A stretch of 43,576 bases of DNA from Deltaproteobacteria bacterium. GTDB taxonomy: Bacteria > Desulfobacterota > Desulfobulbia > Desulfobulbales > Desulfocapsaceae. Numbering within the stretch: position 1 is the stretch's first letter; each line of letters begins with the position of its first letter. The stretch lies in the NCBI GenBank assembly GCA_024280265.1, contig JAJRQL010000051.1:1-43576 (forward strand). Reading direction: 5' to 3'. The position numbers and the translations under genes are program-made. Below, piece by piece: positions 28,883 to 33,472 of this stretch. The notes under the pieces were generated by a model. The model searched no databases. It worked only from the letters and a program-made list of their open reading frames with translations, and was not told the origin of the DNA.

Positions 28883-30259
28883 TTAGTCTATCGCATACTT
28901 TTTAACTTTATATCGAAATGATCTGAAGCTGATACCGAGTAGCTCTGCCGCACGCATCTTGGAGTTTCCGGTCTTTTCAAGGGCTGCTTGAAGAAGTCTT
29001 TTTTCTGTGTCTGCCATGACTTCTTCAAGGCCCCTGGAAAAAAGTTCATCCTCATTGGCAACAACCTGAAAAGGTGCAGAATCTGAATTGTCTTTTGTGT
29101 TGTTTGCCTGTCGAAAGGTGGAGAGGGTCAGGCTCTCTGGTAGGATGATATTTGACGACTCAAGGGCAACCCCTCGCTCAATGATGTTTTCAAGTTCTCT
29201 GACATTGCCTGGGAAGTCGTATTTCATCAGAACCTCCATGGCATAGGAGGACATCTCCTGGATTTTTTTTCTAAAGAGTTTTGAATATTTTTTCAGGAAA
29301 AAGTTGACCAAAAGGGGTACGTCTCCTTTTCGTTCACGTAAGGGGGGAACCCTTAATGGCACAACTGCAAGCCGATAAAAGAGGTCTTCCCGGAAGCGGC
29401 CTGCCATGATCTCCTCTTCTAGAATTCGGTTTGTTGCAGCAATGATTCGAACATTGACTTTTTCCACCTCAATGCCGCCGACAGGTTTTATTTCACGTTC
29501 CTGAAGAACCCGAAGCAATTTAGTCTGAATGATTGGAGTCAGTTCTCCTATTTCATCGAGAAAAGCGGTGCCATTGTCAGCAAGCTGAAACAACCCCTTT
29601 TTATCTGTGATGGCGCCGGTGAAAGAACCTTTGACGTGCCCGAACAGTTCGCTTTCCATCAGTTCTTCAGGTATGGCGCTGCAGGTGATGGGCACAAAAA
29701 CCTGGTCGTTTACATGGGAATGGCGGTGGATGGCCTGGGCCACAAGCTCTTTTCCAGTCCCTGACTCCCCGTAAATCAGCACATTCGCAGGAGTAACTGC
29801 AATACGTTGAATCATCTCGAAAATCTTTATCATCTCCCGGCTTTCTCCAATTATTTCAGGAAATGCAGCTGAGACGGATTTTGCCAGGGTGCTCTGTTTT
29901 TCCCCAGAGGTGGCAGAAGTGATGACAGATTTTATTTCATCAACATTGAAGGGTTTGCTGATATAGTCAAAGGCGCCGTTTTTCATGGCGAATACAGCAT
30001 CATTCGGAGAGGCGAAGGCGGTAATCAGGACAACAGGAAGGGCTGGGTATTCGTCTTTGATGGATCCGAGAAGTTCAAGACCATCCATTTTTCTCATGCG
30101 GATGTCGGTAATTACCAGGTCAACAAGACCCTCACCAAGAATAGCAAGGGCCTGGTTGCCACTTGATGCAACTTTTACCTGATATCCTTCTTTGACAAGA
30201 AGGATTTTCAGGAAGTCCCGCATGCTGCGTTCGTCATCTACGACGAGGATTGAGGTCAT
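28883..30259 (-). CDS. Sigma-54-dependent response regulator, NtrC/PilR family
   Basis: A 458-residue enhancer-binding protein. The receiver domain carries the phosphorylation site Asp52 (V-I-T-D-I-R-M). The AAA+ domain has Walker A G-E-S-G-T-G-K-E and the sigma-54 contact loop G-S-F-T-G-A. A Fis-type helix-turn-helix ends the protein (M-R-A-A-E-L-L-G-I-S-F-R-S-F-R-Y-K). It lies 11 bases upstream of its kinase in one operon. The kinase's six-helix sensor and the regulator's D-F-P-G-N-V-R-E-L-E-N segment suggest a PilR/PilS-like pair, but no pilin gene is in the window, so the target regulon is open. The family N-terminus fixes ATG 30259. Confidence 0.9.
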   Translation of the reverse strand: MTSILVVDDERSMRDFLKILLVKEGYQVKVASSGNQALAILGEGLVDLVITDIRMRKMDGLELLGSIKDEYPALPVVLITAFASPNDAVFAMKNGAFDYISKPFNVDEIKSVITSATSGEKQSTLAKSVSAAFPEIIGESREMIKIFEMIQRIAVTPANVLIYGESGTGKELVAQAIHRHSHVNDQVFVPITCSAIPEELMESELFGHVKGSFTGAITDKKGLFQLADNGTAFLDEIGELTPIIQTKLLRVLQEREIKPVGGIEVEKVNVRIIAATNRILEEEIMAGRFREDLFYRLAVVPLRVPPLRERKGDVPLLVNFFLKKYSKLFRKKIQEMSSYAMEVLMKYDFPGNVRELENIIERGVALESSNIILPESLTLSTFRQANNTKDNSDSAPFQVVANEDELFSRGLEEVMADTEKRLLQAALEKTGNSKMRAAELLGISFRSFRYKVKKYAID

Positions 30260-30411
30260 GTTTCTGTATTTGAGATAATGTGAGATTACGTGTTCTGTCA
30301 GTAATACCTGACCCGACAAGTCGAAAAACGTTTTCTGAAGTGCAGGATTTAGGTAACAGGATATATTTAACTTACCGCATTAACCAGAAATTTTCCATTC
30401 CTTAAAAACAT

Positions 30412-30678
30412 TCACCCGAACATTCTTATCAACTCTTCCTTCTCTTTTTTTCTGAGACGCTTTATTGCATATTCCCTTGAGGAGGCAAGAGATCTGCTTG
30501 GTTGCTCTTCCGAATAGACAAGAGAAACCGGTCTGCGTCCCCGTGTGTATTTGGCACCTTTGGTCGAGTGGTTGTGTTCAGCAAGACGTTTGGTGAGATC
30601 GGTTGTGATGCCGGTATAAAGTGTATGGTCACTACAGCGGACCATATAAACGCACCAGGCCGGTTGGTCAGGTGCCAT
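30412..30678 (-). CDS. GIY-YIG domain protein, UPF0213 type
   Basis: An 88-residue single-domain GIY-YIG protein. V-Y-M-V-R-C-S-D and L-Y-T-G-I-T-T-D form the GIY...YIG-type pair, followed by the R-L-x-E-H-N loop, K-G-A-K-Y-T-R-G-R-R-P and the glutamate-containing E-Y-A-I-K-R-L. Small YhbQ/UPF0213 proteins of this kind are annotated as putative nucleases; the cellular role is unclear. ATG 30678 is chosen; GTG 30687 is in frame. Confidence 0.85.
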   Translation of the reverse strand: MAPDQPAWCVYMVRCSDHTLYTGITTDLTKRLAEHNHSTKGAKYTRGRRPVSLVYSEEQPSRSLASSREYAIKRLRKKEKEELIRMFG

Positions 30679-30799
30679 GGGGTCCACGGGAATAGGTGGT
30701 TTTTGAAAAGATGTTTTTTGCTTCTGATACCATTACTTAAGGTAATAGTTAAAGTGTTGATGGATAGTGGAACTCAAAAATTCGGAATGAACTCAGGAT

Positions 30800-30845
30800 A
30801 AAAAAAGGCCTGTACTTTCTTCATCGTAGAAGATAGTACAGGCCT
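30800..30845 (-). terminator. Strong terminator of the octaheme cytochrome gene
   Basis: AGGCCTGTACT and AGTACAGGCCT form a long stem extended by a further TTCTTC/GAAGAT pairing around a short loop. On the minus strand it is followed by seven U residues. It lies 35 bases past the stop of the cytochrome gene and makes that gene a single-gene unit. Confidence 0.88.
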
Positions 30846-30879
30846 CCCAGAACGCCAATAGATTTAAAATAAAACCAGA

Positions 30880-32163
30880 TTATTTATGGTTTGCTCTCAT
30901 GGTTCTGGCAAGTTCTTTGATCTCACCCAGGTCTTCGGTCATCATATTCCAGCCATACCAGTAGGCATAGTCAGGATTTATGTGAAAGAATGCCTGATAA
31001 GCCCGCATGCGATGTTTCATGTACATACGCAGGAGAACCTGATCAATGTAAGAGAGCCTGTCAAGATCCTCATTCCAGGCAGCACCGTTCGTGTGCATGA
31101 AAGAGAGGAGGAATGGGTAATTAAAGGGATAACTCTCTGGCTTTTTGATGATGCCCTCTTTATAGAGAGCGGCAACGGTCTCAATGGCCTCTGCCATCAG
31201 ACGGTCAGCTTTGCCAAGGATGGAATCTCCCATCTCAAGCTGGTTTTTTGCGTAGTTTTCAGAGTGACACTGGGTACAGATTTTGAGCATTTTGTTACGC
31301 TCCTTGTCCCAGGAAGCCTGGTCAAGGCGGACCATATCAACGGCTTTTACCGCGTCAAGAATTGGGGTACCCTCACCTGTTTCAGGATCCAGTACGCCAA
31401 GTGCTTTGAGGATGACTACCCGGTCTGCGGCTTCCTGTTTGTCTTCAGGGAGCGGCAGGCGAACACCGAGAAATCCCCATGCTGTGCGGTTCTCATGGGT
31501 ACCATCTGGAAGATGACAGGTCTGGCAGGTTGGTGCAGCTGCACCCTCTGGAAGATCACCGGCCTGTTTGGCAAAATAACGTATTCCGTGTTTGGAACTG
31601 GACCACATCTCCCACTGAGGATGATCATAACCCATGTGGCACTGTTGACAGGCACGGGGGTTGTTGGCCTCTTTTTTGGAAAATGCGTGGCGGGTATGGC
31701 ATTCGTCACAAGAGTTAACCTGGTAACGGTAGCCTTTTGCCAACTGATCTTTTTTCTGCTCTTCGGTTTTGATGCCCATGTTGTGACATCCACCGCAACC
31801 GCGGCCGCCTTCGATGAGCTCATCGGGCGCATAGTGGGTTGCCGGAATGGCATTCAAAGCGGTCCAGCCAAAGTTATGTTTTCCCATTGCAAAAGAGTCA
31901 TATTGTTCCTGATGGCACTCGGCACAGACGGCTTCGTCAGGCAGGACAGCTTTCATGGAATCTTCTGCTGTGGAATGTTTGTCACCGTGACAGGTTGAGC
32001 AGGTAACATCATTTTCTGAATGCTTCGATATTTTCCAGTCGTTAACCATACCCGGTGATACCTTTGTGTGGCAATCAACGCATGTGTCTGCGGCTCCAGC
32101 AATTCCTGCTGTACTGAACAGAGCAAAAACGCCTGCCACCAGTGCTGTTTTTAATTGAATCAT
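30880..32163 (-). CDS. Octaheme cytochrome c, hydroxylamine oxidoreductase (HAO) family
   Basis: A 427-residue exported protein. It has a Sec signal peptide (cleavage near A-G-A-A-D, residues 22-26) and eight C-x-x-C-H haem sites starting at residues 28, 55, 80, 123, 152, 172, 213 and 296, the last after the long gap typical of HAO. The C-terminal part is helical and haem-free, with H-I-N-P-D-Y-A-Y-W-Y-G-W at 394-405. HAO relatives in anaerobes either oxidise hydroxylamine or reduce nitrite, hydroxylamine or NO; which applies depends on the Tyr-haem crosslink and cannot be settled here. No NrfH/NapC-type electron donor gene is adjacent. GGGAGGG precedes ATG 32163; the longer frame to 32277 lacks a leader. 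Confidence 0.88.
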   Translation of the reverse strand: MIQLKTALVAGVFALFSTAGIAGAADTCVDCHTKVSPGMVNDWKISKHSENDVTCSTCHGDKHSTAEDSMKAVLPDEAVCAECHQEQYDSFAMGKHNFGWTALNAIPATHYAPDELIEGGRGCGGCHNMGIKTEEQKKDQLAKGYRYQVNSCDECHTRHAFSKKEANNPRACQQCHMGYDHPQWEMWSSSKHGIRYFAKQAGDLPEGAAAPTCQTCHLPDGTHENRTAWGFLGVRLPLPEDKQEAADRVVILKALGVLDPETGEGTPILDAVKAVDMVRLDQASWDKERNKMLKICTQCHSENYAKNQLEMGDSILGKADRLMAEAIETVAALYKEGIIKKPESYPFNYPFLLSFMHTNGAAWNEDLDRLSYIDQVLLRMYMKHRMRAYQAFFHINPDYAYWYGWNMMTEDLGEIKELARTMRANHK

Positions 32164-32235
32164 CTTCCCTCCCAATGGTGAAAATGGACTTTTTTTTAGT
32201 CTTTGTCGCCATTCGTCAAAGACTGTTTTCTGTAG

Positions 32236-32285
32236 CTGTGCATTTATAATGAATATTGAATCACAATTCTTTGACATAAGTCAAA
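32236..32285 (-). promoter_or_regulatory. HcpR-type operator and class II promoter of the octaheme cytochrome gene
   Basis: TTTGACTTATGTCAAA (32285 down to 32270) is a perfect palindrome of the form wTTGAC-N4-GTCAAw, the pattern I recall for the CRP/FNR-family regulator HcpR of Desulfobacterota. On the same strand TATAAA at 32248-32243 fits a -10 box. This places the operator centre at exactly -41.5 from the predicted start (near 32236), the classical position for a class II CRP/FNR activator. The start codon is 73 bases further. Confidence 0.72.
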
Positions 32286-32435
32286 TCAAAAAAATGAGGA
32301 TAACTATATTTTTTATTGAATGATCAGTTGGTTGTCGGTTTAATGGGAATTGAGATCAGAGCTGATTAAATTGTGGTCGCCCCCTTGTCAGACTGCAGGT
32401 TTTAAGGTAATAAGAGGCAGGATAGTTATTATAAT

Positions 32436-32619
32436 GTGTCCGTCTAGAAATGAGATTTTTTCTTCTTAATTGAGGCGTAGAAGAACTTTTACCGCAGACG
32501 TATATCTGTATTCAGAGGAAAAGGTAATCAGCTTATTATCAACGTTGTTAATAATACTGAGTGAAAAATTTTAAAAGCAACGAAGAGTCAGGTGGAAAAG
32601 GCTATTTTTGGACAGGTAC
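32436..32619 (-). repeat. MITE-like dispersed repeat, copy C (inverted, with insertion)
   Basis: The reverse complement of the copy A/B family, starting GTGTCCGTCTAGAAATGAG and ending TTTTTGGACAGGTAC. It is 184 bp because about 43 bases are inserted in its middle. The insertion includes a near-perfect 22-base palindrome (32533-32554, TTATTATCAACGTTGTTAATAA). The element ends 20 bases before the tatC start. Confidence 0.72.
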
Positions 32620-32639
32620 CGGAATGCAGGGAGGGTGGA

Positions 32640-33472
32640 ATGAGTGAGCAGGCAGCAGAGGATACAGTCAAGAATGATGGGGATAAGACGTCTTTTGAGT
32701 CTCAGGCTCTGACGGGACATCTCCGCGATCTGCGCTCATGTCTTATTAAATCATTTATAACCATTATTGTTGGCTTTGCACTTTCTTATGCTTTTATCAA
32801 GCCCATAGGGACCTGGTTTTTTAAGCCGCTTATTGACGTTCTCCCTGAATCCAGTTCCCTCATCTTCACATCCTATCAGGAAGGGTTTTTTTTTACCTAA
32901 AGCTCGCGCTTGTCTGTGGATTACTCTTTGCCAGTCCTGTTATTTTCTATCAAATCTGGCGTTTTGTGGCGCCGGGGCTCTACAAACATGAAAAACGGGT
33001 AATTGTTCCTTTCACTTTTCTTTCCACCGTTTGTTTTCTCGGTGGGGCGGCTTTCGGCTATTTCGTTGTTTTTCCTCCGGCTTTTAAATTTCTTGTAGGC
33101 TATTCAAATGAGTATCTTGCCTCTATGCCTGCGGTGAGTGAATATTTTTCCCTTGCATTACGACTTCTTATTGCTTTCGGGGTGATTTTTGAAATGCCAA
33201 TTCTGATGGTATTTCTTGCGAAGATGGGTGTTGTTACGGTCTCATTTCTTCATAAAAACCGTAAATATGCCATCCTTATAAACTTCATCATTGCAGCCAT
33301 CCTCACCCCCACTCCTGATGTGGTGAATCAGTTGATGATGGGTATCCCACTCCTGATCCTGTACGAAATCAGTGTGGTTTCCGTCTACTTTTTTGGCAAA
33401 AAAACCTTTCTTGGGTTTACGGAGAAGAAAACTGGAGGAACCGACACTGAATTACTTGAAAACAAAGAGTAA
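32640..33472 (+). pseudogene. tatC: Sec-independent translocase TatC, frameshifted at a T9 run
   Basis: TatC is the receptor subunit of the twin-arginine translocase for folded proteins. The first frame (G-H-L-R-D-L-R-S-C-L-I-K to Y-Q-E-G-F-F-F) stops at 32898-32900. The rest (L-K-L-A-L-V-C-G-L-L-F-A-S-P-V onward, with R-F-V-A-P-G-L-Y and the final helices) is in another frame. One extra T in the T9 run at 32886-32894 would give Y-Q-E-G-F-F-F-Y-L-K-L-A and a 277-residue protein. It may be a sequencing error, or polymerase slippage on the T-run may restore some product. ATG 32640 follows GGGAGGGTGG. An upstream in-frame GTG at 32592 lies within repeat copy C and is not the likely start. Confidence 0.9.

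Follow-up and report, generated by a model that had tools for sequence, protein, structure and literature searches.

We found that a gene for an octaheme cytochrome c of the HAO type, encoded in a Desulfocapsaceae genome, is a well-supported member of the HcpR regulon, as judged from its promoter and from the same box in related genomes of Desulfocapsa-like, sulfur-cycling bacteria, and that it is probably part of nitric-oxide defence. The gene lies on a contig stretch of 43,576 nucleotides, hereafter the window. A sequence-only reading of this DNA had placed the gene in the HcpR regulon, and this placement is now strengthened by a candidate hcpR gene in the same genome, by the published consensus, and by a box common to hcp and frdX across the genus. 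With the octaheme gene, a known regulon gains a new member; the system itself is not of a new kind. In the portions of the HcpR literature available to us, mainly open-access, there is no statement of an HAO-type octaheme in the HcpR regulon.

Promoter architecture of the octaheme gene

Upstream of the octaheme gene, the plus strand contains the palindrome TTGACATAAGTCAA, which on the minus strand reads TTGACTTATGTCAA and comprises the operator core TTGAC-TTAT-GTCAA within an extended palindrome TTTGAC-N4-GTCAAA (Table 1). This bears out the earlier claim of a perfect TTGAC-N4-GTCAA on the strand of the cytochrome. The core is exact against wyTTGACnnnnGTCAArw, and the outer operator positions are GATTTGAC..GTCAAAGA. 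If the TATAAA hexamer is taken as positions -12 to -7, transcription would start at 32236 and the operator centre would lie at -41.5. The class II position that had been claimed thus stands relative to this putative -10; its description as exact holds for that hexamer only, the start itself being predicted. A promoter scan listed no full sigma-70 promoter at this site, and there is no canonical -35 at sigma-70 spacing, as expected if the operator takes the place of the -35.

The ATG of the octaheme gene is preceded by GGGAGGG. A 465-aa frame starting at 32277 was rejected as the octaheme gene because the Shine-Dalgarno sequence and homology put the start at 32163. The terminator-like repeat with its T run behind the gene, which is absent from the scan list (scan loop limit of 8), suggests that the gene is probably monocistronic.

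Table 1. Features of the octaheme gene and its upstream region in the window
Feature	Position	Strand	Basis
HcpR-type operator TTGACTTATGTCAA	32271..32284, centre 32277.5	minus	sequence, ortholog conservation, held-out matrix score of 18.6 bits
-10 hexamer TATAAA	32243..32248	minus	first base 30 nt past the operator centre
Predicted transcription start	32236	minus	deduced from the -10 hexamer
Leader hairpin 1, covarying stem, 5-nt loop	32198..32224	minus	fold and covariation
Leader hairpin 2, CATTTTC with start-codon region, Shine-Dalgarno in or beside the loop	32161..32186	minus	99.1% of cells paired (alignment A2)
Octaheme HAO-type cytochrome c, 427 aa, 8 CXXCH	30880..32163	minus	motifs and matches to HAO structures
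Terminator-like inverted repeat and T run, 3' of the octaheme gene	30800..30844	minus	by eye

Conservation of the operator within and beyond the genus

In a protein search, 69 of the 93 family genomes gave an octaheme match. Within the genus, orthologs of at least 69% identity are present in 17 of 20 genomes; those of G014 and G015 are partial, and a 50-aa piece in G023 was left out of the count. An operator with at most one mismatch precedes 13 of the 17 orthologs, the window included, and is perfect in 11. The one-mismatch form TTGACTTATATCAA is that of G010 and G021, the G021 copy lying 301 nt upstream. Two mismatches were seen in the octaheme operator of G022, and no operator was found upstream of the gene in G006, G015 or G007 (431 nt covered in G007). 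Among 12 orthologs, picked because the operator is present, mean pairwise identity was 0.97 for the ten fixed operator columns versus 0.32 for the 30 columns before the operator. A TATAAT-like hexamer (at most two mismatches) stands at exactly +30 in 12 of the 13 operator-bearing orthologs, including that of G014, the exception being locus L016 of G010.

Two copies deserve separate mention. The region upstream of the diverged G006 octaheme gene (L365; 71% for the gene) has no operator; by eye, a CATTTTC...GAAAAATG element is kept there, and a different long inverted repeat lies ahead of the diverged gene. The sister genome G011 carries a second octaheme copy (C58:34631-35845, 69%) with two in-frame TGA codons.

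At the family level, 13 of 30 loci have the operator with at most one mismatch. Among named genomes, a scan returned 257 octaheme relatives, 80 of which were kept (608,180 bases of loci in total). Nearest are Desulfocapsa and Desulfobulbaceae, followed by Desulfuromonadales, MAGs labelled Zixiibacteriota and Krumholzibacteriota, and others. These 80 loci hold 12 perfect boxes, all of them at most 350 nt upstream of the octaheme gene; nine of the loci are genus genomes already counted, and these account for seven of the 12. The other five are in records not matched to the genus (L301 from a Desulfurivibrio sp., L307, L309, L316 and L319), where a TATAAT hexamer with two mismatches was seen only in L319 (+30) and L309 (+28), the remainder having at least three mismatches. 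With one mismatch allowed, the box is present in 16 of the 80 loci (8/9 genus, 8/71 others) and absent from 64, four of the 80 having less than 100 nt upstream. Read from these sequences, the operator wiring is genus-wide and patchy further out.

The same box precedes hcp and frdX

Perfect boxes of the genus that are intergenic and lie away from octaheme genes number 29, and 11 of them precede a protein of about 249 aa with 4Fe-4S (Fer4) domains. We take this protein to be FrdX, since the ferredoxin published as the partner of hcp is FrdX. Targeted searches of the genus recovered 17 full hcp genes and, in G015, the 5' end of a further hcp, together with 14 frdX loci, of which one is fragmentary; hcp was searched with TIGR01703, since PF03063 also picks up CODH-like genes. 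A box with at most one mismatch was found within 350 nt upstream of 18/18 hcp and 14/14 frdX loci with the 5' end covered. It is followed at +29 or +30 by a TATAAT-like hexamer (at most two mismatches) in every hcp locus but L162 (17 of 18) and every frdX locus but L196 (13 of 14). The hcp boxes lie at -145 to -155, and that of the second hcp of G022 (L159) at -292.

In the window genome, hcp is cut off by a contig edge (C102), and the targeted search did not find frdX. The hcp and frdX boxes of the sister genomes match the octaheme operator in form. In the part of PMC545781 available to us, Table 10 gives HcpR sites of the same form for hcp/frdX of Desulfotalea psychrophila. A symmetric matrix was trained on 27 distinct hcp/frdX sites, leaving out all octaheme sites and L159, the weak second hcp of G022. 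This held-out matrix scored the window operator at 18.6 bits and the runner-up in the window at 7.2 bits.

Genomic surroundings and predicted function of the octaheme

The window octaheme is flanked by an NtrC-like response regulator gene (28883-30319, same strand) and by tatC on the opposite strand. The tatC gene (about 32640-33472, plus strand) is read as two frames (32592-32900, 32966-33472) with a long T run nearby; its second half matches TatC, and the relative L254 has a single 278-aa frame. The split may be a true frameshift or an assembly error.

In relatives, other gene arrangements occur. One strand of G022 carries, in this order, the octaheme, a hemerythrin/PAS protein and hcp. In Desulfoprunum benzoelyticum (L273), ScdA/Ric-like, octaheme, hcp and flavodiiron-type (ODP domain) genes lie within 9.3 kb. 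Flavodiiron homologs are in the fetched flank of 5/80 wider loci, including L273, the source of the flavodiiron query; in L318 and L326, the flavodiiron gene shares the octaheme's strand and lies about 300 nt behind it. The fetched flanks of the 80 loci contain hcp in one (L273) and Ric in one. Judged by their sequences, these neighbours fit nitric-oxide chemistry, yet they are found at a minority of loci. Together with the co-regulation, the hcp and flavodiiron neighbours of some relatives make it plausible that the octaheme removes or reduces NO, hydroxylamine or nitrite.

The octaheme protein has a signal-peptide-like N-terminus (by eye), and its CXXCH Cys and His positions are kept in 80/80 wider loci, apart from C55 of a single locus, where a stop is read. 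In a PDB profile search, the first 7 of 17 matches were HAO or hydrazine dehydrogenase chains, with a best E value of 1.4e-30. In common with the HAO family (NeHAO, 1fgj/4fas; Kuenenia, 4n4j/6t5e/6h5l), the protein has eight CXXCH motifs and, by profile alignment, an Asp-His pair and a Tyr. However, it measures 427 aa versus 500-546 aa in the HAO-family chains, the best similarity is remote (109.8 bits), and its hosts are anaerobes of the sulfur cycle, unlike those of the compared chains. Its AlphaFold model is poor, with a mean pLDDT of 54, and says little on an HAO fold or trimer.

Within HcpR control, the purpose of the enzyme might instead be respiratory nitrite ammonification by a reverse-HURM route, in which the octaheme makes hydroxylamine and Hcp makes ammonium. 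The available text of PMC3701875 proposes hao and hcp as sequential in Nautilia profundicola, which resembles the pairing of an HAO-type octaheme with Hcp here; there the setting is a nitrate pathway and that text does not mention HcpR, whereas here the link is a common operator. The route would suit the 12 of 20 genus genomes, G022 included, that lack a full-length NrfA match. The window genome has a full NrfA of its own, however, so that the octaheme is not its sole candidate nitrite reductase, and the neighbours in L273, L318 and L326 are of the NO-detoxification type. We consider ammonification a possible purpose, though on balance a doubtful one.

An oxidase is an unlikely reading, though some residues speak for it. 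The pair D180-H181, conserved in 80/80 wider loci, falls opposite NeHAO chain residues 267-268, and Y401 aligns with residue 467 at high posterior and is Tyr in 79/80, the remaining locus not being covered; this alignment is remote, and a gap sits three columns ahead of the Tyr. We take NeHAO 467 to be the cross-link Tyr and 267-268 to be catalytic residues. Since the residue opposite the NeHAO cross-link Tyr is a conserved Tyr, the sequence does not imply a reductase over an oxidase. With a P460-type cross-linked heme, the enzyme could turn hydroxylamine into NO or nitrite and clear periplasmic hydroxylamine arising from nitrite reduction. Yet NO production under a regulator of NO defence would be counter-intuitive, and the remoteness and the gap weaken the alignment on which the residues depend. 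In addition, the portion of PMC8940962 at hand treats absence of the Tyr as a mark of reductive HAO and reports that 52 HAO-like mat proteins lacked it.

A structured leader upstream of the start codon

Between promoter and start codon, the window leader folds into two hairpins (z -3.28), and both appeared each time when four leaders were folded singly (z -3.28, -1.35, -3.27 and -3.23). An alignment of 14 leaders (A2; 13 genus genomes and G033) showed two-sided, pairing-preserving changes at 6/8 pairs of hairpin 1, amounting to 14 such cells. The cell number, the percentage paired and the covariation score were reached in 0/500 shuffles, and slid controls were far lower; the structure came from RNAalifold on the same alignment, which favours hairpin 1 in this test. 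Hairpin 2 showed no compensatory change in A2.

A leader profile (R1), which is near to a sequence profile only and has its first helix mis-registered, matched 14 of 91 family genomes once each. These matches are the 14 training leaders and hence reveal no new leader elsewhere. The held-out leader of G014 was matched by R1 (E 0.00011) and missed under stricter filters, and the searched hcp and frdX loci gave no R1 match. An Rfam search over 30500-32700 returned nothing over the cut-off and three weak matches (E 0.61-4.1). The two-hairpin leader was seen at the octaheme gene only, in 14 genus genomes and G033, and it is retained in G007 and G033 without a box nearby. It is conceivable, but rather improbable, that control by HcpR at the promoter is joined by a second level of regulation, in which a new leader RNA, its hairpin 2 hiding the start codon, acts as a translational switch on a periplasmic NO/hydroxylamine enzyme and responds for example to NO, heme supply or redox state.

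A candidate HcpR in the same genome

The regulator survey covered proteins of the HTH_Crp_2 model, two of which exceed the cut-off in the window genome (C163 and C191:8902-9558). The C191 protein is of the Crp/Fnr type (PF00027 and PF13545) with no Cys, and its gene has dinB-like and L,D-transpeptidase-like neighbours (by eye). Its recognition helix GTIPETLSR is identical in 30/30 fetched orthologs. Numbered by eye against CRP, PETLSR agrees with Pro/Ser at position 180 and Glu at position 181. The accessible parts of PMC1274295 and PMC545781 describe Ser/Pro in place of Arg180 in HcpR of delta-proteobacteria except Desulfovibrio, and the box wyTTGACnnnnGTCAArw outside Desulfovibrio. The consensus cited in the sequence-only reading agrees with this published form for delta-proteobacteria outside Desulfovibrio, and the hcpR for which that reading advised searching has a candidate at C191:8902-9558 with an HcpR-type helix. 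For D. desulfuricans, the sections of PMC5701242 available to us give HcpR1 a different box, report heme binding by it, propose NO sensing, and place hcp under the control of HcpR2.

Orthologs of the candidate HcpR are present in 17/20 genus genomes, one as a contig-edge fragment, and in 80/93 family genomes (rows with E <1e-70). In seven genus genomes (G006, G008, G010, G016, G018, G019 and G023), this ortholog is the sole HTH_Crp_2 protein above the cut-off, and all seven bear the hcp box. This argues against another Crp/Fnr-type protein, such as FNR, DNR or the CooA-like C163 protein, as the reader of the box, which we regard as very unlikely. TTGAC-N4-GTCAA does resemble FNR/DNR half-sites, and C163 is a second Crp/Fnr protein in the window genome. 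Moreover, no hcpR ortholog was found in G015, G020 and G021 (completeness 72, 88 and 95%), which retain hcp boxes and, in G020 and G021, frdX boxes too. However, C163 differs in its helix (SSRQTVST) and shares 24% identity with the HcpR candidate, and its gene adjoins a truncated PF03063-family gene read as CODH. The HcpR candidate, being without Cys, would have no FNR cluster, which speaks against FNR. The C191 protein is our preferred reader of the operator.

Motif frequency and the predicted regulon of the window genome

Perfect copies of the consensus number two in the 3.3-Mb window genome, compared with three for a reversed control pattern, and 74 versus 92 over the 20 genus genomes; within the window, 16 matches with at most two mismatches were observed and 24.5 expected. 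Since the bare motif occurs at control frequency, the motif alone proves nothing. Unlike the bare motif, the sequence context of the operator is above chance, as seen in ortholog conservation, the held-out matrix score and its position in relatives. The palindrome is therefore almost certainly no chance match, whatever the control-level number of perfect copies in the genome, considering that conservation, that score and the positional enrichment. Of the 74 perfect genus sites, 11 are at octaheme genes and 63 elsewhere, 34 inside an open frame and 29 intergenic; most perfect sites inside open frames are probably chance. The second perfect copy of the window genome (C75:8892) was rejected as a regulatory site and taken as chance, because it falls within an ORF that by eye resembles a molybdopterin oxidoreductase, and its score is 5.0 bits.

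A looser pattern, TTGAYNNNNRTCAA, matched 24 places in the window genome versus 9 for its control. When the matrix was rebuilt with another background and other pseudocounts, the octaheme operator scored 19.3 instead of 18.6 bits and ranked second. Ranked first was a NapH/YccM-like polyferredoxin gene (24.3 bits, TATACT at +31; L333 1501-2764, G000:C35). Third came a PerR-like gene (18.4 bits, no good hexamer from +28 to +31; L360, G000:C210:6996) and fourth a ResB cytochrome c assembly gene (16.5 bits, AATAAT at +28; L332, G000:C35:7682). In G009 and G013, too, a ResB gene has a perfect box ahead of it (L105 and L122, the latter, from G013, assigned by its N-terminus only), as does a Fur/PerR-type gene in G012 (L119). 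The Desulfuromonas HcpR regulon in Table 10 of PMC545781, a source available in part, includes a polyferredoxin, yccM, as well as a 'cytochrome c (heme-binding protein)'. On sequence grounds, the NapH-like polyferredoxin is a candidate electron donor of the octaheme.

Discussion

Taken as a whole, we consider it likely that HcpR activates the octaheme gene in class II fashion, along with hcp and frdX, upon exposure to NO or nitrite, and that the product is a periplasmic enzyme of NO, hydroxylamine or nitrite. In this scheme, NO, or nitrite by way of NO, would activate HcpR, which would bind at -41.5, replace the -35 of a weak promoter and recruit polymerase. Expression of the octaheme gene would then be induced along with that of hcp and frdX. 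The octaheme would have NO, hydroxylamine or nitrite as its substrate on the periplasmic side, outside the cytoplasmic membrane, and Hcp with FrdX would handle NO or hydroxylamine inside the cell. Binding, activation, inducer, location, reaction and electron supply are what we infer from the DNA and its relatives.

As far as the available parts of PMC545781 and PMC1274295 describe it, the delta-proteobacterial HcpR regulon is alike in box form, in the core of hcp and frdX, and in Pro/Ser at 180. The present case differs from that description in the fixed -10 spacing across a genus and in the octaheme HAO-type gene, which those parts do not name.

HAO-like octahemes are widespread in anaerobic sulfur bacteria, with 257 relatives of this one clade in the scan. 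The promoter that the gene has in common with hcp and frdX ties this octaheme clade to nitrosative stress. If true, this would bring a secreted multiheme enzyme into the HcpR regulon and, through ResB, perhaps cytochrome c assembly as well.
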